The position numbers and the translations under genes were made by a program. Of a DNA stretch of 64,000 nt, positions 6,941 to 63,011 are shown in pieces (within the stretch, counting starts at the first letter, position 1; each line of letters starts with the position of its first letter). The stretch is taken from the NCBI GenBank assembly GCA_030386875.1, contig CM059562.1:22187360-22251359 (forward strand). The letters are read 5' to 3'. This stretch comes from Morinoia aosen. Taxonomy: Eukaryota; Arthropoda; Malacostraca; Amphipoda; Talitridae. Below the pieces are notes generated by a model that saw nothing but the letters and a program-made list of their open reading frames with translations, was not told the DNA's origin and searched no databases.

Positions 6941-7839
6941 ACATTTAGATACGTAAAATTATAACTATCTATAATCATTGAATACATTTTTATATGTGTG
7001 TATAATAATATTGTCTGGCCTAAAGACTATTTATCGACATCCTGCCCTTATGCCGTCGTCAACTTAATTCTACTCGAACACTCGAACAGTAAGGTACATT
7101 ATACAACATGTATGGGTAATGTTGTAATGTGGTTTACGAGTGAAAACTTGACTAATAAGTTTTTTCGGTCGCCACCGAAATGAGGTATAAAAATGAAATG
7201 TCAGCAATGAAAACAACGCATTGATTTACACATGTCATACTGGTGTAGTTACACATCTTGCACGCGTAGTTAGGTATAAATAGCGATGAAGGTTTTTTTC
7301 AAATTGATTGCTGAACTTCAGTGGCAAAAATCAGAATACTACACCTTTCATCAGAGTTAAATAAATTCTGACGGCGTAAGGGGAGGGGAGAAGTCTGTGA
7401 ACAATCTTAATTCTCCCTTTTGTGAATAAACTACACACACAGTAGTTTACTCGCGTCATCAAGGCGGCTCCTATTTTGTTTTGATCTTTTTATCTTCTGT
7501 GTTAGGAGAATATCATAATGAATTTCAATCATTATGAATGGATTTCAGTTCAAAAATGCTGAAATTTGCTGTCATTAGGGAACTTTCTGGTATCCAGTTT
7601 ACAGAATCGGAGTAGGGAAGGACATAGCTACTTACCAAGCAAACAAGCATACTCTGTGTCACTATAGAACAAGTTGAAAGTCTTTTGTCATAAATTTTCA
7701 TGAAGTGTGCATTTTACTATCGAGAGCTGTTATATTTTGCCCAAATAGACAAATATTAGAAAAAGATTCGTGTGACGTAACACGTAATATTTCACAAAGA
7801 TAGCAGCTCAGCTAATAATTGAAAATTTATCAAAAGTTC
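6941..7839. other. Intergenic, nothing recognised
   Basis: AT-rich sequence with only short open frames. No repeat or protein signature seen. Confidence 0.5.
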
Positions 7840-20345: not shown

Positions 20346-23300
20346 TAACTCCCAGCTCTATAGATAATTAAGCATAACTGATGCACTTCAGTTGAGCTAA
20401 CTTTCAGAAGAATCAGAACCTCTAAAATTGTAAATTTATCTGAAAGACCCAGTACAATGGGACTGGTCAAAACAAGCCTACAAAACAAGTTTTCGTGAAG
20501 TACAACGTATGAGTTTTTGTATGGTACAAAGTTTGAGTTTTATGCCCATGGGGTAGGAGCGAAGCTTCAAACTTGAAGAAGTTGCTTTGTGACAAGCAGG
20601 CTCTGTTTTTCTAATGGTCTTTTCTATATGAGCCTGCGAGTTCGTCTTACGGACTAGTTCTGTGTTTCAGAGGTGATGGGAGGTGCGGTCGGTTTTTGAC
20701 TGAACGTATTACCGGAGAAATAATTAATTGTACACTGCCCTGTTATCAGGCGTACTTGATGTTCACATATCACTGATGTATTTTACGGTTATTGAGTGAT
20801 TTTGAAAAACATGGAGACTGAATGTGAATGTTTCTCAAAATTAAAATGATGAATATAGGAACCGCTGAGTCTGAACCGTAATAATAAAGCTAAATGTAAT
20901 TTTTAGAGCGCCAATAAGCGATAGTTATTATTTGAATTAATATAATTACCGTTCAGAAAACAGACAGTCGACACTTGCAGCTTAACAAAAAGACGAGGAA
21001 TACACACTGCACAGCGTCAAAATCAGGTAGATTTGGCCGTTGTAAACTGGCTATAATCCAACAGCAGACTAGGACAAAACACTAAAGCTGTAAGCCAGAT
21101 TAGACTACGTTTAAGTAGAGAAGTTGCTGGCCAAGAGTAGACTTGGCCAAATTAGACGAGCTGAAAAAAGCGAAGAGTACACGATGCATGGTGCGCCAAA
21201 ACAGCAATAGAGGCACCCACGCACTACTTGGCCAGCTACTGAGTAAACCGAGAGAAGGGCAGACAGCTGGTGCGTACCTAATGACCATCAGCACCTGCTT
21301 CTCCACTTGTCAGGGTATTGCTATAGGTCACTGGGAACTCATTTCCCCTCTCTTTAAAACTTGCCAAGTAATTTCTGACAACCGGTGCAGTAAAAACTAA
21401 TGTCAAGAAAAATTTCCTAAGCCGTACGTCCAAAAATAGTTCAAATTAACTGCAAAATGTCGCGTAAATTTTTTTCTGAGCATGAGATAGGCATAATGTT
21501 ATAAATATGCTCATTTTCAGGAGCAGGAATAAGAAATCACCCAAAAATTAGCGGGCCTTGAAGTACTTATGAAGGAAAGGAGCCGAAGTCAGCTAGGTGG
21601 CGGGGGCCAGCCAAAGCCTTAAAGTGAACCTAAACTGAACATGATCATAGGCTGAACTGAGTTTCTCGTTTACTGAGAATAAGCGGAACTGATCTCGGTT
21701 ACTGAGAGAGAACGTAGCCCATTCCCTAAGGACAACAACGACACTGTGACGGAGAAAAAGTCGCTTCTGCATTGAGAAAAGTTACCTCATCACGACATGC
21801 TGCATGACATATATACTCGTACTTTAAATGCATTTGCAGATGTTTTTCTACCTTACTAATTTCCTTTAACAGACAAGTAATACTTCCGTCCTACCGTTAT
21901 GCCGCGATGTTTATTGGTTATCTCCACTGATAAGATCTTTATTGTCCTTCCTTCGTTACACCTTCGATGTTAAGAATTTCCTTTCCTTTCACACGTAAAG
22001 CACTGGCTACCAGGCTCACATGACTCCCCTCGTCTCCCAGGGTCTTGTGGACTGACTTGTATATAAGAACCGATCACGTGATGGCATCATGTAGTACGGT
22101 CGATCCTCGAGTTTTAGGGCAACTTCTCATGCGAATCTTAACTTAGCCAGGTAAAATTTTGCTCAGATTCAGAGTTATTCATAACTGGCATTGTTTTCGT
22201 TGAATAACCGGAACTTGTTTTTATCCGACTTGCACAGGATAGTTTCAATTCGATGATCAATTGTACTTTTTTGGCACACCTCAGAACTTCCAAACCTGGA
22301 CTCTGTCAGGCGCTAAGCCTTTTGCACCTGCTGAACTCGGAGAGATCTTTAAAAATCAATGTGAAGTGCTGGAACAGAATTTAGTGTTGCCAAACAAGCT
22401 GAACCTTCCCAGAATATAACGAATGTTGCGGGTTCTCCAAATTCATCTGGGGGAAATTCTTTTGCTCCGGAAAATAGCGAACCGAACCGCGTCTAAACAT
22501 CACCCCATGTATTTTTTCGCTCTGGAATAGGGATTTAAACTTGAGAGTGAATGAAATATGAAATATTTGATAGTAAGAAAATGAAAAACTTGGGGCTAGG
22601 GCTTTGGGCGGCACTTTTCTTCATTTAGCATCAATGCTGCCATGTTAACTAGTAACCTAGAATGGTTACCCTCTAATATGCTAACACGGATGGTTAACTC
22701 AGGAGAACTTTAAATGAACTTGAAAATGAAAAAACACCTATAAAGGAATAGCATTTATGTTGAAAATACTCAAAAAATATAGGTCTTCATTTATCATTTG
22801 TGTTATTTTGAATTGAAATTACAGTTTAAAAAGTACCTTACAAACCCTGAGAAAATAGTTAGCAGCGGGGGTAATTAAATTAAACCAAAAAACTTCATAT
22901 TTAATTAGCAAAATAGCAATCCGATCTTCTTACCCTCGTGCGTGGTCTTACAGGGGATAACTCGATCAGTAATTTTTTTATCTATGGACCGATTTTCCTG
23001 AAATTTGCCCAGAATATGTAATTTTAAAAAGAAAAACATATTTACTCCAGTAACTTTCTAGACTTAGTCCTTCGTTTCTTGAGAAAATGGGAATTGTTAT
23101 TTTTTTAATAATTCTCTTGGACATTTCAAAAGAATAGAAGTCGATGAGTTTTCATGCTAGAAAAAAAACAAAGACAACTTTTTTTAGGTTGCATATATAT
23201 GTTATGATATATATATATATATATAGATATATATTTTAATATATGTATTTATAAAAACACATATATATATATATATGTATATAGCATAACATATTTATAT

Positions 23301-24025
23301 TTAACGTACACTAGCTGTATGCAATCATCACAGGCACCGGGATAATTACTCCCTGGTAACCGTATCAGGTTTATTAAATACAGTTCTAATCACGCAACAT
23401 TTCTTCAGGTACTCACAGCACAGGGCGTTGTAGCATGAAAAGGTTTTGGGCAGATACAATGTGCACACTTGATGCACTTGGCGATATGTGCTCATACATT
23501 CTCGACTCCACAGCACATCGCGCTAACTAAAGGCTCAACTTCTCTAGACGTCTTGTTGTTTGAAACGTTTATTTCCCACAAGCAACGGGTCTGTTAAGGT
23601 TCACCAAACTTATGCTTCAATTTTTAAATCGCGTGGTTTACTTCCTTAGTGAGAGCAGCCGGCGTATTTTATCAGGAAAGAAGTTTTTGATGTGTTATTG
23701 GAGAAGTTATTATTTCACACGTTAGTGTTGCGTCAAGTAAGAGGTTCTCTCTAAGGATAGCTCGGAAATTTCCCAAAATAATCAATGGAAATTTTCAAGA
23801 AAAGCATGAAATAATATTTGAGAAAATGCGATTTTCTACAGATACCGTGTGAGGCATTTCTGTGTCTTATGGGTCCATGTGTTTTTAAAATTACAATGAG
23901 CCCATCTCACGGACATTCCCTAGTGTATCTCCCAGAAGCTGGATTCTCGAGCGTTTCGTAAGATCGACTTAGTGCTGCTGCTTTGCACCTCCGTGTTTTT
24001 ATTTTCACTACATCGCAACGCTTGA
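20346..24025. other. Intergenic, no gene recognised
   Basis: Contains only short open frames. An AT-dinucleotide palindrome is at 23190-23300. Some of the last several hundred bases may be the 5' UTR of the LINE that follows, but no 5' boundary is visible. Confidence 0.45.
23190..23300. repeat. AT-dinucleotide palindrome
   Basis: Runs of (AT)n lie on both sides of a short spacer, and the outer ends GTTATG and CATAAC are inverted copies. The sequence can form a long hairpin. It may be a simple repeat or the core of a small inverted-repeat element. Confidence 0.6.
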
Positions 24026-24064
24026 CTTTCTCCGGGAAGAGTTGATTATCATTATTTTACTTCT

Positions 24065-24952
24065 GTGTTTGGCCTGCCTATCTCGTTGTTCTCCTCAGTT
24101 TTCCTGGTATCAAAGTTTAGTACTGGATTTTCGAAGAATGTGTGTCGTCGTAGTGGTTCAGTTGACAGCGTAAGTTCTTCTAGTTCTACAGCTACCACAG
24201 CGTTAATTTTCATAAAATCAATACAAAGAGAAAAATTGCAGCAGAATCGCGGTCAAAATCCGATAAAATACTTACAGCCAAACCGCACACATAACCACCA
24301 CCAAGAGAGTGAAAATGACAAGAGCACCCCTCATTTCTCAGTCGCTCACTCAGCTAAAACTGGCCACAGCCTGCCAATTCAAAGCGAGGAAAGCAAGAAA
24401 TCCAAACAACTCTCATCCGAAAATGCTGAATGTCAGCCTAAATATCACTCAAGCCCCATGTACTCACTCGTCAGTACCACCATGGATGAATTAAAACGAT
24501 CATTGAAAGTGAAGCTGCATCCTACCATAGCCGATGGGCACTGCCTCCTTCATGCAGTAACTCACCAGCTTAAGACAAAATCGCCCTCAAAATGGAATTA
24601 CAATTCCTTAAAAGCAGCAATAAAAAAAGAAAGCACTACAAATGAAAACAAATATGTCAATTTCCTTGCCAAGAAAAGCGGTGATCTACCTAGGCTCATA
24701 AGTAAATACATTGACGAAAAACATTTTGATCATGATGCTGGGGACCTAATACCACATATCATATCAAAGATCACTGGTAGGAGAATTCTCATCTTCGATG
24801 AGCAAGGCGATGGTATTTGGAGAACAGTAATCGACCCCTCACCAGAAGTATCAACTAATAACCATCCGTTGATGCTTCATCGGAAAAATCATCACTACAG
24901 TACCCTTGTTGCACAAGACAAAAACAAGACTGATATCACATCATCTTCATGA
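24065..24952 (+). CDS. LINE ORF1 with OTU-like cysteine protease domain
   Basis: About 295 codons end at TGA 24950-24952. The first 130 residues are polar, Ser/Lys/Gln-rich and without a known fold. Residues 148-283 form an OTU domain: the catalytic loop DGHCLLHAV (Asp at 24533-24535, Cys at 24542-24544; usual form DGNCLFRAV), then helical segments including YVNFLAKKSG, an ILIFDEQG strand, and the catalytic His in HHYSTLV (His at 24893-24895). All three expected active-site positions are present. OTU proteins cut ubiquitin chains or act as proteases; in a LINE it might process the translation product or counter host ubiquitin marking, but this is inference. The frame opens at 24026 without an ATG; the first in-frame ATG is 24458, which still keeps the entire OTU domain. 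A further ATG is at 24482. The listed start is only the first non-ATG start-like codon. Confidence 0.8.
   Translation: MFGLPISLFSSVFLVSKFSTGFSKNVCRRSGSVDSVSSSSSTATTALIFIKSIQREKLQQNRGQNPIKYLQPNRTHNHHQESENDKSTPHFSVAHSAKTGHSLPIQSEESKKSKQLSSENAECQPKYHSSPMYSLVSTTMDELKRSLKVKLHPTIADGHCLLHAVTHQLKTKSPSKWNYNSLKAAIKKESTTNENKYVNFLAKKSGDLPRLISKYIDEKHFDHDAGDLIPHIISKITGRRILIFDEQGDGIWRTVIDPSPEVSTNNHPLMLHRKNHHYSTLVAQDKNKTDITSSS
24950..24952 (+). other. In-frame TGA joining ORF1 to ORF2
   Basis: ORF1 and ORF2 share the same frame; the codons after TGA (caa aat act gtt gtc cag) run without a stop into ORF2. The codon is flanked by TCA before and CAA after. A C-to-T change in CGA would create this TGA, so it may be a decay mutation; it may also be a recoding site. 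Confidence 0.9.
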
Positions 24953-27937
24953 CAAAATACTGTTGTCCAGTTGAATAGCAGTCTCTCAAACACACCAGAT
25001 GCTAGACTTGACACTCTGGGCAACAATGATAAAATCAATAAGTCCACGAAACAGTCCCTACCAAAAAATCCCTCTTATGCCACAAATAATCGCCATAAAA
25101 TAAAAAACATTAAAATTAAACATATCAATACTCGTAGCCTCTTTAGTAAGCTGGATGACATTAGAGTAATGTTGGTCACAGAAGACATTGACATTTTATG
25201 TGTTTCCGAGACATGGTTCGATTCGCGCACTCAGAGCTCCTTTTTCAACATTCCCGATTATGTGCTGTACCGCCATGACGGCGTTAAAAATAGCAAAGGT
25301 AGTGGTTCTTGTATTTTCGTAAGAGAAATTTACCAGTCGTCTTTACTTTTAACAAACGAAGTGTGCGAGGGCATAGAGATGGTTTGGTTGAAAGTGCAAA
25401 TAAATAAACATAAATCCATCATTACCGGCAGCCTTTACCGGCACCCATCAGCTTCTCTACCAACAACAGTAGAGTTCATTGAGAAAATTTTCAGAGAAAT
25501 TTTGGCTACAAAAAAGTCATTCTTTGCTTTCGGTGATTTTATTATTGACCTGACGGATGAAAAAAATCAGCTTAGCAGACTGTTGTACAAACTAAACCTT
25601 TCACAAATGGTCAAAGAACCAACTCGCGTCACAAGCGTATCTAAGACTCTCCTCGATCTAGCAATCACAAACAAACCTACGGCAATACTTAATACAGTAA
25701 TATCACCCTCTGTCGCCGATCACCACTCTGTAGAATGTAAAATTAATATTGCAAAGGAAAGACAAAACTATCGTCTCATGACTTACCGCCTAAAAAGTCA
25801 ATATTCGCCGGAACTATTTAATGAAAAACTCCTAAACAGGTTCACCGAATTTCAGAGCATGATGCAAATTGACGATGTGGACATTCAAGTTTCTATCTTT
25901 AACGAGAACTTTACAGCAGCTCTAAATGAATGCGCTCCTTATATCACCAAAAAAACTAGGCCAAAACGCACTCTGTGGATTACCAGCGAAATTAAAGACC
26001 TAAGCAGAATAAAGAAAATTTACTTGCGAGAGTACAAAGAAAACAGGTCAAACATTACTTTATACAGGAGGTATAAAGAACTTGGAAAGATTCTTCGGAA
26101 GAAAATCACGCAAGCAAAACAAACTCACTTCCACCAAGAACTATTCATGGCAAAAAATAATCCAAAACGCACATGGGAAATCATTAGTGAGGTGGCTCAA
26201 TATAAAAACTTAGAGCGAAAAAGTTATTTTGAAAATCCTTTGGAAAAAGCCACTGAGTTCAACACTTTCTTTTCAAAAGTAGGTGCCCAAGTCTTCGATG
26301 AAGTGAGTAAAACCAGTCCGAGGAAATTGACAGTTGAAAGTTCATGCCCTACTGCACTTTTAAAGGCTAGCGCCCTGTGGAAGCCACGCCCTATCGATTT
26401 ACCAGAGTTAAAAACTATTTTATACTCATTGAAAAACACAAAAGCAGTTGGACATGATGGAATCAACCTCCAATACATAAAAGACAGTTTTCCAGTCACA
26501 GCACCATTGATTCGTTTGATTATCAACACATCAATAGCTACTAATAAGTTTCCAAAACAATGGAAACACTCTATAATTAGACCGTTGCATAAAACTGGAG
26601 ACATAAATACAGCGTCAAATTACAGGCCCATTAGCCTTTTACCTGTCCTGTCCAAAATATTAGAAAAAGTAGTAACGAATCAACTGTCATCTCACCTGGA
26701 CGAGTCAAATTTACTTCATCGAAATCAATATGCCTATAGGAAGAACACTAGCACTCAAGACGCCCTGCTTAACATCACTGAAAAAATATACAACGACATC
26801 GATCAAAAAAATGTTACAATATTGCTGCTACTTGATCTCTCTAAAGCATTCGACAGCGTCGAACATGATCAACTCCTACAAAAAATACTGAAATTAGGAG
26901 TGGATACACAGTGGTTTAAAAGTTACCTTTCAAACCGGTCTCATGCAGTCCTCTTAGATAACAAGTTGTCCCCATTCCTTCAAAATACTCGTAGCTTTGG
27001 TGTCCCTCAAGGATCAATTCTGGGCCCGCTACTGTTCTCAATTTTCATTAACGATTTCCCTCCAATGCCTTCTAACACACGAATCTCCATGTATGCAGAT
27101 GACGTCCAAATTGCAATGACAAGCTCTGTAGCACAAATACCACAGACGAAAAAAGAAGCTGAAGCTCTATTGATCAGCCTCAAGTCATGGTATGACCAAA
27201 ATGGTCTCAAGCTAAACGCGAACAAAACACAATTCATTATTTTTGGGTCAAAGCATTCAATAAACAACATTCAAAATCTAGATCTAACTCTTACAGTTGG
27301 AAATGACAAAATTCACCCATCAGAAAAAGTAAAAAATTTAGGTATTTGGTTCGATAGAAACATGTCCTTCAAATCCCACGTTGACAAAACCTGCAAGGCA
27401 ATTCACGGGACCTTATTGTTTTTCAATCGTATAAAAAATATGCTTGACGAAGAATCTAGATTGTTGGCCGTTCATTCTTTGGTCTTATCACGTATTGACT
27501 ACTGTAGCCTGGTCTGGGGAGATATATCGAAAGATCTTCAGAAAGACCTACAAAAATGCATAAATTTTGCAGCAAAGGTTGTATGCAGCGGTCAATTCAA
27601 AAAGCATGACCACGTAACACCACTCCTGGATAAACTTGGCTGGGCTCCGATTCGGGAAAGGTTTCTGGCGCACAAAGCCCAATACGTTTTCTCCTCTTTA
27701 TATCTTCCTCATAGCAGTGCTGAAATAGTGGAATTCCACTCCCCTACCGTCACGAACCAAAAGCCAAACAGGAGACGTGATGTCTCAATCAAATACCGTT
27801 CATCTAGCATCGGGCAGAAAGCTCTGTCAGTATCAGGCGCCTTACTGTGGAACAAACTCCCCCAGAGCTTCAAAACCCCTCAAACACTGAGAGAATTCAA
27901 AACTAAAATGGCTCTCTATCTTGCGTCAGCACAATAA
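24953..27937 (+). CDS. LINE ORF2: apurinic-type endonuclease and reverse transcriptase
   Basis: About 994 open codons follow the TGA directly and end at TAA 27935-27937. Endonuclease motifs: HINTRSL at 25121-25141, SETWFD (Glu at 25208-25210), GSLYRHP, GDF (Asp at 25535-25537), LLDLAITN, and ADHHSVE (Asp-His at 25718-25723). The Asn normally following GDF is Ile (25541-25543). Reverse-transcriptase motifs: LDLSKAFD (first Asp at 26834-26836), GVPQGSILGP from 26999, and YADD at 27092-27103; then a long C-terminal region with SRIDYCSLVWG and LWNKLP (27845-27862). No zinc knuckle was noticed. No ATG precedes the endonuclease: the first Met codon (25169) lies inside that domain, so translation must come by readthrough of the TGA, re-initiation at a non-ATG codon, or the TGA is a mutation in a single long ORF. 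No other stop or frame change is present. Confidence 0.92.
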   Translation, partial: QNTVVQLNSSLSNTPDARLDTLGNNDKINKSTKQSLPKNPSYATNNRHKIKNIKIKHINTRSLFSKLDDIRVMLVTEDIDILCVSETWFDSRTQSSFFNIPDYVLYRHDGVKNSKGSGSCIFVREIYQSSLLLTNEVCEGIEMVWLKVQINKHKSIITGSLYRHPSASLPTTVEFIEKIFREILATKKSFFAFGDFIIDLTDEKNQLSRLLYKLNLSQMVKEPTRVTSVSKTLLDLAITNKPTAILNTVISPSVADHHSVECKINIAKERQNYRLMTYRLKSQYSPELFNEKLLNRFTEFQSMMQIDDVDIQVSIFNENFTAALNECAPYITKKTRPKRTLWITSEIKDLSRIKKIYLREYKENRSNITLYRRYKELGKILRKKITQAKQTHFHQELFMAKNNPKRTWEIISEVAQYKNLERKSYFENPLEKATEFNTFFSKVGAQVFDEVSKTSPRKLTVESSCPTALLKASALWKPRPIDLPELKTILYSLKNTKAVGHDGINLQYIKDSFPVTAPLIRLIINTSIATNKFPKQWKHSIIRPLHKTGDINTASNYRPISLLPVLSKILEKVVTNQLSSHLDESNLLHRNQYAYRKNTSTQDALLNITEKIYNDIDQKNVTILLLLDLSKAFDSVEHDQLLQKILKLGVDTQWFKSYLSNRSHAVLLDNKLSPFLQNTRSFGVPQGSILGPLLFSIFINDFPPMPSNTRISMYADDVQIAMTSSVAQIPQTKKEAEALLISLKSWYDQNGLKLNANKTQFIIFGSKHSINNIQNLDLTLTVGNDKIHPSEKVKNLGIWFDRNMSFKSHVDKTCKAIHGTLLFFNRIKNMLDEESRLLAVHSLVLSRIDYCSLVWGDISKDLQKDLQKCINFAAKVVCSGQFKKHDHVTPLLDKLGWAPIRERFLAHKAQYVFSSLYLPHSSAEIVEFHSPTVTNQKPNRRRDVSIKYRSSSIGQKALSVSGALLWNKLPQSFKTPQTLREFKTKMALYLASAQ

Positions 27938-30370
27938 GTGTGAACTGCAGTACGTGCTGGAGGAGTGCGTATATGCAGTACGTGTGTGCGCATATGCGTA
28001 TGGATATAGGTGTACGTATGTGCGTGTCTGTATGTTTAGAACACATTCCCCTTTAAAATGCTCATGTTGATCCTATTGTGACGCAGTGTCGTCCTTTACA
28101 CTCTTCCAGTATGCTTCGGCCACACCATTTCAGGTTGTTTTGACTATCTCGTTTTGCCCCAGCAATCTTGATAATGTTACGGTTGGCATTGTACATCGGT
28201 CCCTCTCATCTATTTTGAATCCGGCGAATTTTTTCTGTGCCAAAGCTTGTAGTATACGAAATTTAAATTTTTCCGTTATTGTAAAATCTTCATTTCATCC
28301 ATACCGGTATTTTAGCTTACTAGTTAATACAGAACAATGTAAAACTGCCTCTATCATCAACCTAGCAGTCAAAGATGCAAATTAATTTTGGATCGACCCG
28401 TTGTACTTTCAACCTTTAATCCCTCATTTCACTAGTTCCAACGTTCGTAAGCTCAAATTTCAATATGGAAGTGCACCAACTGGAGTGTTCTTAACAACGC
28501 ATCACATGTGCAATGTTTTCTTGACCCCTTGAAATAAAACCCAGTGTTAAAATCAGACCAACACAACGGAGAGAATGCATTTATCTACGTACTTTTCTCC
28601 TAATTATTTGTTCTAAAACTTAACCGATAGAAATATTACGATCCTCATGTATTTGATATCAACACAATGGAAGGAATGCATTTTCTTTGTACTTTTCTCT
28701 CAACCATTTGTTTCAAAATCAACCAATATAAATATTACGATCCTCATGTACTCGATCTCAAGTCATGGTCTTAACTTTAAGATACTCGTAAGTACTTTTC
28801 GCTCATATTGAAGCTTTTTGAACATGCGACGTAGTTCATTAGCAATTTTTTTACTTTCCTGCGCTCGTGTGTACATTGGTGTTCCAGCTATGTAGCAAAT
28901 ATTACGGACTCGTGATCCAATAACGCGCACCCTAACAGGAGTATTTTCAGCTATGTGTCACAGGGATTTTGTGTTCTTAGTGACTCACTTTCATCTTGCA
29001 TTTCCAAACCCAAATTAATTATCCCAAAGAGAGAGAGGATGTTAAATGTGAGGGTATTTTTTGCACATACTCTCTCTACTTCGGTCTCATTGAAACTTTT
29101 AAAAAAGGCCTCGGATCTGACGAATGTCATAACTTTAAAGATCATCATTTTAATCTTCTTATTCTGGTCTCAAATTGCTGTCGTAAGCTTTGTGTGATAA
29201 ACTCTTTTTACCTTTTTATTCTCGTGAATACACTACGACAACACTAATTCTAGATAGTTAACTTTTGTACGGTTCCACCTATGTTGAAAATATTACAGCT
29301 AGCGATGTAAAACAATACTTTTCATATCTTTGACCCCGATGTACTCTTTGCGCCAATACTATTACCGCAAGTAAGAAATATCATAACCATTTTGTGTTTT
29401 GTTATAGCAAATATTATCGTTGGGACACCTTGCATAGGGATGAAAGATCGGATGTGGGCTTTCACCAGATGTAAGATATAAACAAGTGTGAAGCGTAACC
29501 AAGTGCAGATGCATGACCGGGTGCGGGGCATCACCGGAGGAGGGAGCGAAGTGTTGTCGGATGGGCGAAAGGAATTTTGGGATTTTGGAGTTGATAATTT
29601 ATTAGAAAAAATAATAAGCCCCATTTCCATTTCCGGGCACCACAGATGGAGTACTAGTAATTGTGGAAAGCAACCTCATTCCACTGCATGGAACCAACAG
29701 TTGTGGTGCTCATTTTATTCGACAGGAATAAGTCGGACCAATATTAGAATGACTTAGCGAACGTAAAACAAGATAAATTTTTCACTTCCTAGCAAAATTT
29801 CAGATATTAAAATTTAGAAATTCAAACACAGAAACTGAAACTTAGTGCTGCCCTCCAAATGCAAACGATCCTCTTATACATATTATTGTTTATTTTTTAT
29901 TAACTTGTGCTTCTCCCTAAATCCTGCGTCGACAACTATCATGTGTATTGCGATAACCATGTATGAATAGCAATTAAGGATCTAAATCATATGTTCCAAC
30001 ACTTAACATGGGTATTACGATAACCATGTATAAATAGCAATTAAGGGTTTCTATGCTAAGGTATTTGAATGCATTTTTCGCTTCCATTTTTCAATACTTG
30101 TGCGTACTAATGAAAGTGTTTTTCAAATGAGCGTCGCGAGGATTGTGCTCTCTTAGTTCAAAATCAGATTAGGCAAGGAAAGGAACTCAATTTTGTTGTA
30201 CTTTTCTATCAATCATTTTGTTTCAACATTCTACACGGGTATTACGATACCAATGTGTTATAATCATTTAAGGATGTTAATGTTAAGGTGTTTTAAAAAC
30301 CAATGTATTGACATTTCATGTTTGTACTTTATTGGAAATAAAATGTTTTTCTTTCTTTCTTTCTTTCTTT
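27938..30370 (+). repeat. LINE 3' region of degenerate repeated units with CTTT tail
   Basis: After a GT- and ATGC-rich stretch (27938-28030), a unit built on GTACTTTTCTCTCAACCATT and then TATTACGATCCTCATGTA recurs about every 98 bases at 28588 and 28686, then more loosely near 28795, 28895, 29288, 29942, 30007 and 30198-30250. The end is CCAATG, then TTGGAAATAAAATG, then (CTTT)n. The last 150 or so bases match, reverse complemented, the stretch 56322-56530. Short open frames within (28086-28385, 29322-29630 and others) have no recognisable content. Confidence 0.6.
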
Positions 30371-34046: not shown

Positions 34047-34546
34047 NNNNNNNNNNNNNNNNNNNNNNNNNNNNNNNNNNNNNNNNNNNNNNNNNNNNNN
34101 NNNNNNNNNNNNNNNNNNNNNNNNNNNNNNNNNNNNNNNNNNNNNNNNNNNNNNNNNNNNNNNNNNNNNNNNNNNNNNNNNNNNNNNNNNNNNNNNNNNN
34201 NNNNNNNNNNNNNNNNNNNNNNNNNNNNNNNNNNNNNNNNNNNNNNNNNNNNNNNNNNNNNNNNNNNNNNNNNNNNNNNNNNNNNNNNNNNNNNNNNNNN
34301 NNNNNNNNNNNNNNNNNNNNNNNNNNNNNNNNNNNNNNNNNNNNNNNNNNNNNNNNNNNNNNNNNNNNNNNNNNNNNNNNNNNNNNNNNNNNNNNNNNNN
34401 NNNNNNNNNNNNNNNNNNNNNNNNNNNNNNNNNNNNNNNNNNNNNNNNNNNNNNNNNNNNNNNNNNNNNNNNNNNNNNNNNNNNNNNNNNNNNNNNNNNN
34501 NNNNNNNNNNNNNNNNNNNNNNNNNNNNNNNNNNNNNNNNNNNNNN
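34047..34546. other. Assembly gap, 500 N
   Basis: Exactly 500 N. The round number shows a placeholder gap of unknown true size. Open frames reported across it are meaningless. Confidence 0.99.
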
Positions 34547-43636: not shown

Positions 43637-44092
43637 GGGTCACGCCCACTTGCTTGGCGGGACACGCCCACTTGCTTGGCGGGACACGCCCACTTGCTTG
43701 GCGGGACACGCCCACTTGCTTGGCGGGACACGCCCACTTGCTTGGCGGGACACGCCCACTTGCTTGGCGGGACACGCCCACTTGCTTGGCGGGACACGCC
43801 TACTTGCTTGGCGGGACACGCCCACTTTCTTGGCGGGCCACGGCCACTTTCTTGGCGGGCCACGGCCACTTTCTTGGCGGGCCACGGCCACTTTCTTGGC
43901 GGGCCACGCCCGCTTTTTGACGGGACTCGCCCACTTTTTAGCGGGACACGCCCACTTTTTGGCGGGTCACGCCCACTTTTGGCGGGACACGCCCACTTTT
44001 TAGCGGGACACGCCCACTTTTTGGCGGGACACGCCCACTTTTGGCGGGACACGCCCACTTTTTGGCGGGACGCGCCCACTTTTTGGCGAGAA
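43637..44092. repeat. GC-rich tandem array of 20-22-bp units in three blocks
   Basis: About twenty units of the form GGCGGGACACGCCCACTTGCTT lie head to tail. The array is in blocks: CTTGCTT units with GGGACACGCCCA (about 43637-43825), CTTTCTT units with GGGCCACGGCCA (about 43826-43910), then shorter CTTTTTGGCGGG units of 20-21 bases (to 44092). Overlapping long open frames on both strands (up to 179 codons) are repeat artefacts. The surrounding DNA is strongly AT-rich. Confidence 0.95.
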
Positions 44093-62511: not shown

Positions 62512-63011
62512 NNNNNNNNNNNNNNNNNNNNNNNNNNNNNNNNNNNNNNNNNNNNNNNNNNNNNNNNNNNNNNNNNNNNNNNNNNNNNNNNNNNNNNNNN
62601 NNNNNNNNNNNNNNNNNNNNNNNNNNNNNNNNNNNNNNNNNNNNNNNNNNNNNNNNNNNNNNNNNNNNNNNNNNNNNNNNNNNNNNNNNNNNNNNNNNNN
62701 NNNNNNNNNNNNNNNNNNNNNNNNNNNNNNNNNNNNNNNNNNNNNNNNNNNNNNNNNNNNNNNNNNNNNNNNNNNNNNNNNNNNNNNNNNNNNNNNNNNN
62801 NNNNNNNNNNNNNNNNNNNNNNNNNNNNNNNNNNNNNNNNNNNNNNNNNNNNNNNNNNNNNNNNNNNNNNNNNNNNNNNNNNNNNNNNNNNNNNNNNNNN
62901 NNNNNNNNNNNNNNNNNNNNNNNNNNNNNNNNNNNNNNNNNNNNNNNNNNNNNNNNNNNNNNNNNNNNNNNNNNNNNNNNNNNNNNNNNNNNNNNNNNNN
63001 NNNNNNNNNNN
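62512..63011. other. Assembly gap, 500 N
   Basis: Exactly 500 N, the same placeholder length as the other gap. Its right side enters directly into a copy of the foldback-like family. Confidence 0.99.

Follow-up and report, generated by a model that had tools for sequence, protein, structure and literature searches.

How the second open reading frame (ORF) of a long interspersed nuclear element (LINE) is translated from its downstream frame is a long-open question, and a locus in the amphipod Morinoia aosen raises it directly. The window, by which we mean the whole 64,000-nucleotide stretch of contig CM059562.1 analyzed here (positions 22,187,360 to 22,251,359), carries a LINE copy in which an ORF1 with an OTU-like protease domain and an ORF2 for endonuclease and reverse transcriptase (RT) are divided by one in-frame TGA. 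An initial annotation left two readings of this stop: recoding by readthrough or reinitiation, with an OTU protein and a longer OTU-endonuclease-RT product that the protease might process, or C-to-T decay of a CGA codon in a copy whose parent had one long ORF. The stop proved to be conserved both in the family of the window copy and in a sister family from this amphipod genome, and we consider it likely, judging from the sequences, that these OTU-bearing LINEs make their RT protein through stop-codon readthrough.

Layout of the Element in the Window

The two stop-to-stop frames, at 24026–24949 (308 codons) and 24953–27934 (994 codons) on the plus strand, are one and the same frame with the TGA at 24950–24952 as sole divider, just as the initial annotation had described. 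ORF2 (24953–27937, 994 codons plus a TAA at 27935–27937) contains an RVT_1 reverse transcriptase domain at 26594–27349 (E = 1.5e-38), with YADD at 27092–27103, and a weak Exo_endo_phos match (E = 0.042). An apurinic/apyrimidinic (AP)-like endonuclease and an RT in a single ORF identify the element as an APE-type non-long terminal repeat (non-LTR) retrotransposon, i.e., a LINE. The part of ORF1 present in the window that follows its first in-frame ATG (24458–24949) encodes the OTU-like cysteine protease domain. The TGA, which is the proposed readthrough site, is followed by CAA AAT and by an open linker (24953–25120) that reaches the first endonuclease motif without an in-frame ATG, which agrees with a further statement of the initial annotation. 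After the TGA, Met first occurs at codon 73 of ORF2 (25169), beyond the first endonuclease motif at codon 57, so that initiation at an AUG would truncate the endonuclease. No Met precedes the endonuclease motif in the ORF2 of the window copy, of its relative L120, or of L028 from the sister family.

The window copy itself is not pristine, being 5′-incomplete and carrying a changed endonuclease residue. It spans 24213–28042 on the plus strand and is 95–99% identical to four relatives (L095, L096, L118, and L120) from 24213 on; its 3′ end lies at 28042 at least, as the matches to L118 and L120 reach the ends of the fetched sequence (28042 and 28037). LINE homology begins near 24213, whereas L095 and L096 run on upstream and extend the ORF1 frame, in L095 to 572 codons that are ~40% identical to the ORF1 of the sister family. 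Because relatives share sequence only from 24213, positions 24026–24212 are flank, and the ORF1 start that the initial annotation had placed at 24026 falls outside the element. In the endonuclease, an Ile codon at 25541–25543 replaces the conserved Asn of the GDFN motif, giving GDFI. Asn stands there in all 11 other LINEs aligned at the position and in 19 of 20 other copies, all but L098, which is the segmental duplicate of this locus. The duplicate covers 22127–24489 of the window, which matches G000:C7:22922900-22925260, 0.7 Mb off on the same contig, at 99.7% over 2365 bases. Since this identity spans the non-LINE flank (22127–24212), the locus is duplicated as a segment, either by segmental duplication or as an assembly duplicate.

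Conservation of the In-Frame Stop in Two Families

Aligning the junction codon across copies of the same genome separates a private mutation from a property of the family. We scored 40 copies of the window family, the best of 2092 first-look candidates in a DNA search of the genome; they are 98–100% identical, one is the window copy itself, and, as the top-scoring copies, they represent the family without its older members. All 40 are dispersed, on many contigs. The junction codon is TGA in all 39 other copies (one of them the segmental duplicate of the window locus), and a sense codon occurs in none. The following codon is CAA in 37 copies, TAA in one, and AAA in one. In L120 the frame is open before TGA CAA and for 992 codons after the TGA.

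A search of the genome for the OTU domain, in which the best 150 matches of 1842 candidates were scored, yielded a sister family of LINEs. Its representative L028 shares 65% amino-acid identity with the window copy in ORF2 and 52% in the OTU domain, and has clear matches to RVT_1 (E = 1.6e-38) and Exo_endo_phos (E = 9.1e-10). We assembled 35 sister junctions from eight returned loci, 20 longer stretches, and seven of eight short ones; the eighth (L049) was excluded as a likely exon of a host OTU gene, judged from its translation. Because the 20 long stretches were selected for lying on the plus strand with a long uninterrupted OTU frame, the openness of their ORF1 is in part a product of that selection; their junction codon was unknown when they were chosen. 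TGA CTA AA is present at 35 of 35 junctions, again with no sense codon. In one copy (L051) the frame is shifted just ahead of the stop and the match ends just past it. The long stretches have OTU frames of 806–864 codons, and 11 of the 20 include a full ORF2 (987–991 codons). Long matches to L028 are 96.5–99.7% identical, which indicates that the sister family was recently active.

Selection on Either Side of the Stop

Between the window copy and L028, the nonsynonymous rate (dN) in the endonuclease-RT region is 0.22 against a synonymous rate (dS) of 2.28; in the OTU domain dN is 0.36 and dS is beyond computing. Coding constraint thus acts on both sides of the stop, and the stop has been kept in frame across a divergence at which silent sites are saturated. 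Its position is kept as well: in the window copy and L028, respectively, it lies 19 and 20 codons past the OTU His and 57 and 54 codons ahead of the endonuclease motif.

Within the sister family, ratios of nonsynonymous to synonymous differences (pN/pS) were pooled over 66 pairs of 12 copies, namely the 11 with a full ORF2 plus L040, which has an extra stop in the linker. The pooled ratio is 0.27 across ORF2 and 0.32 across the final 170 codons of ORF1. Over the last 700 codons of ORF1 it rises to 0.69, so most of ORF1 is weakly constrained. In a single pair from the window family, L120 and L118, the OTU part has a ratio of 0.53 on 9 changes, and ORF2 has 0.38 over its first 181 codons and 0.23 over its last 482.

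Amino-acid constraint on the linker is slight. Its ratio is 0.52 in the sister pool (on very few changes), 0.89 between L120 and L118 (4 changes), and 0.99 between L120 and L028; with the start of the endonuclease included, window copy and L028 give 0.43. Its first 49 codons are open by chance in 6% of shuffles. We read the linker as a spacer.

The OTU Domain

The end of ORF1 is predicted to be an OTU cysteine protease-like domain, based on a profile match together with Asp/Gly-x-Cys and His motifs. The match of the window copy to PF02338 (E = 3.3e-4, 21.6 bits) is just below the cut-off of 23.3 bits, and that of the sister family (31.4 bits) is above it. A profile search with our alignment A2 led to VCPIP1 (E = 0.0045), to which the Cys part was aligned. 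The motifs DGHC (Cys codon at 24542–24544) and HYS (His codon at 24893–24895) are invariant in the 13 rows of A2, and we take this Cys and His to be the catalytic residues. A single-sequence search of the PDB returned only RNase III (E = 0.27 and 0.61), and searches of PHROGs and NCBIfam added nothing further on ORF1. The middle of the sister ORF1 is reminiscent of an SGNH/esterase fold; Pfam gave only the OTU match for this ORF1.

OTU proteases have been described in other mobile elements, Ginger1 and Helitron (PMC2836005). Those are DNA transposons, in contrast to the LINEs described here, in which the OTU domain is at the end of ORF1.

Sequence Context and Proposed Expression

The sister junction, UGA CUA A in the RNA, contains UGA-CUA, a known and strong readthrough motif of animals that by itself gives 1.5% readthrough in human cells; readthrough of OPRL1 is ~31%, and the CARYYA context is reported to act on UGA too, not on UAG alone (PMC4132726). 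We propose that the family RNA encodes ORF1, a long protein that would end in the OTU domain, then the single in-frame UGA, then ORF2. The majority of ribosomes would terminate at the UGA and release the ORF1 protein, and a minority would decode it as an amino acid and continue into an ORF1-ORF2 fusion. Endonuclease and RT would thereby be supplied at a low, fixed ratio to ORF1 protein, much like gammaretroviral Gag-Pol. The OTU domain might cleave this fusion, or might strip ubiquitin from the fusion or from proteins of the host.

Similar Junctions in LINEs From Other Assemblies

When bacterial and archaeal assemblies were scanned for a LINE RT motif, 19 contigs were returned, which we take to be host contamination. 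Six of the 19 have ORF1 and ORF2 in one frame with exactly one stop between them. Four of these (L004, L016, L018, and L019) come from metagenome-assembled genomes labelled Poribacteria, which we take to be sponge symbionts. All four have ORF1, TGA CTA, and ORF2 in frame, with the endonuclease beginning directly after, and their ORF2s are mutually just 39–56% identical. In the remaining two the junctions are TAG CAA CTA (L012), which has the CARYYA form of the tobacco mosaic-type context, and TAG GAA (L006). An OTU domain was recognizable in none of the 19. Among 18 ORF2s placed in a tree, the four Poribacteria-labelled LINEs form one clade (support 100/100), as do the window and sister families (100/100), and a 99/97 branch separates the two.

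Beyond these contigs, a tblastn search of phages and plasmids gave distant RT matches only; most of the plasmid matches listed were group II intron RTs. No relative turned up when viral and genome contigs were scanned with ORF2, and an RT-motif scan of viral contigs gave no match.

We lean, with some reserve, toward stop-codon readthrough being a strategy that recurs among LINEs, in the manner of retroviral Gag-Pol. At least two well-separated lineages would have evolved or retained it, namely the OTU-bearing LINEs and the clade from the sponge-symbiont contigs, with the RT protein made as an ORF1-ORF2 fusion, here of ~1,800 residues with OTU, endonuclease, and RT.

Short motifs resembling 2A peptides (GDVEXNPGP type; GDISTNPGP in L008) were seen close to where ORF1, or the long ORF, begins in L006, L016, L014, and L008. 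Such motifs occur in some sea urchin and other LINEs.

Weighing the Explanations

The defects of the window copy, its missing 5′ part and the GDFN-to-GDFI change, would fit a stop that arose by nonsense mutation (e.g., CGA to TGA) during decay, but a private mutation should leave sense codons in relatives, and there are none at the 39 family junctions or the 35 sister junctions across a divergence that saturates silent sites. For the copies examined, decay of CGA is therefore rejected, and we give this explanation almost no weight. More serious is the proposal that a separate ORF2 protein is made, by termination and reinitiation, through an internal entry site, or from a non-AUG codon downstream of the stop. 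Reinitiation has been described in other LINEs (it is reported for SART1 and has been proposed for mammalian L1; PMC5972666), the linker is under little constraint, and in the window family an ATG overlaps the stop (ATGA, 24949–24952). From that ATG just 9 codons can be read, in a frame other than that of ORF2, so we rejected it as a reinitiation site, and it is missing from the sister family; moreover, neither reinitiation nor non-AUG entry needs a shared frame or TGA CTA, and the sister family and the Poribacteria-labelled clade keep both. We regard a separate ORF2 protein as unlikely. Bypass of the UGA by selenocysteine insertion, by A-to-I editing to UGG, or by splicing out of the stop is compatible with the DNA evidence alone, but plain readthrough already explains UGA-CUA, and in Rfam no family, the selenocysteine insertion element SECIS included, reached its gathering score in the window or in L028 (the latter reaching only ~1.07 kb past ORF2). 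These routes seem very improbable to us.

Readthrough is the simplest account because it covers at once the shared frame, the conserved stop, the lack of an AUG, the two-sided constraint, and the UGA-CUA context. Several observations nevertheless weigh against it. The context in the window family, UGA CAA AAU, keeps the C after the stop and is neither UGA-CUA nor a full CARYYA; it is probably weaker than UGA-CUA. No RNA stem-loop was found after the stop in the window or sister family (z = 0.19 and -0.72), and a 3′ stem-loop was accordingly rejected as stimulator. The linker has little amino-acid constraint, over few sites, and two of the three window-family stretches that were read through ORF2 (L118 and L119) are interrupted in it. 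Among the contaminant contigs, 13 of 19 lack a single in-frame stop; some of these 13 have overlapping or single long ORFs, and several have no complete ORF1. Finally, the two clades are not sisters in the ORF2 tree, and the shared design may thus be convergent or very old. On balance, the recoding option of the initial annotation gained from the conserved stop, the two-sided purifying selection, the absence of an ATG, and the UGA-CUA of the sister family; that readthrough occurs, its rate, and the fusion as the working RT protein are what we infer from these.

Relation to Known Systems

Judging from its general features, the element probably resembles the Jockey superfamily. LINEs of that superfamily (CR1/L2/Jockey-like) likewise have an AP-like endonuclease and RT in ORF2 and an ORF1 with variable domains upstream (PMC4120745). 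The ORF1 types given there are RRM, PHD, and esterase, in contrast to an ORF1 that ends in OTU and is followed by one in-frame UGA before ORF2; that paper does not contain the words protease, stop codon, or readthrough.

Gammaretroviral Gag-Pol, as here, has a structural ORF joined to an in-frame RT ORF across a stop codon. It is made by readthrough of UAG with an RNA pseudoknot, in a virus with LTRs, whereas the LINEs described here have UGA and showed no stem-loop. Alphaviruses use UGA-CUA readthrough. Among cellular genes, OPRL1, OPRK1, MAPK10, and AQP4 are read through at UGA-CUA (PMC4132726), the motif shared by the sister family and the four Poribacteria-labelled LINEs; the window family differs in having CAA in place of CUA. 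In the known UGA-CUA cases, which are cellular genes or viruses, the extension is short or viral, whereas in these elements it would be an entire LINE ORF2.

For LINEs, reviews name reinitiation, bypassing, and a form of initiation as yet unknown as the routes to ORF2 translation (PMC5009743, PMC5972666). SART1 and mammalian L1 likewise produce ORF2 from a downstream frame (PMC5972666), with reinitiation where stop and start codons overlap or beyond a spacer, unlike the single frame without a start codon described here. We found no LINE that uses stop-codon readthrough and no LINE with an OTU domain in literature coverage that leaves out most subscription journals and the Repbase reports. A conserved UGA-CUA junction in young, multi-copy LINEs would offer a simple answer for some lineages, namely a low, set rate of readthrough. 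If this is correct, the fusion would place RT on the ORF1 protein, non-LTR retrotransposons would join viruses and cellular genes as users of readthrough, and annotating such stops as decay would misread intact elements.

Other Features of the Window

Two runs of exactly 500 N each (34047–34546 and 62512–63011) are assembly gaps or masked stretches. A tandem array at 43637–44088 consists of ~21 copies of a 22-base unit with 93% matches. On the minus strand, 29652–29815 matches positions 7371–7537 of L028, just past the ORF2 of that sister LINE, at 72%.

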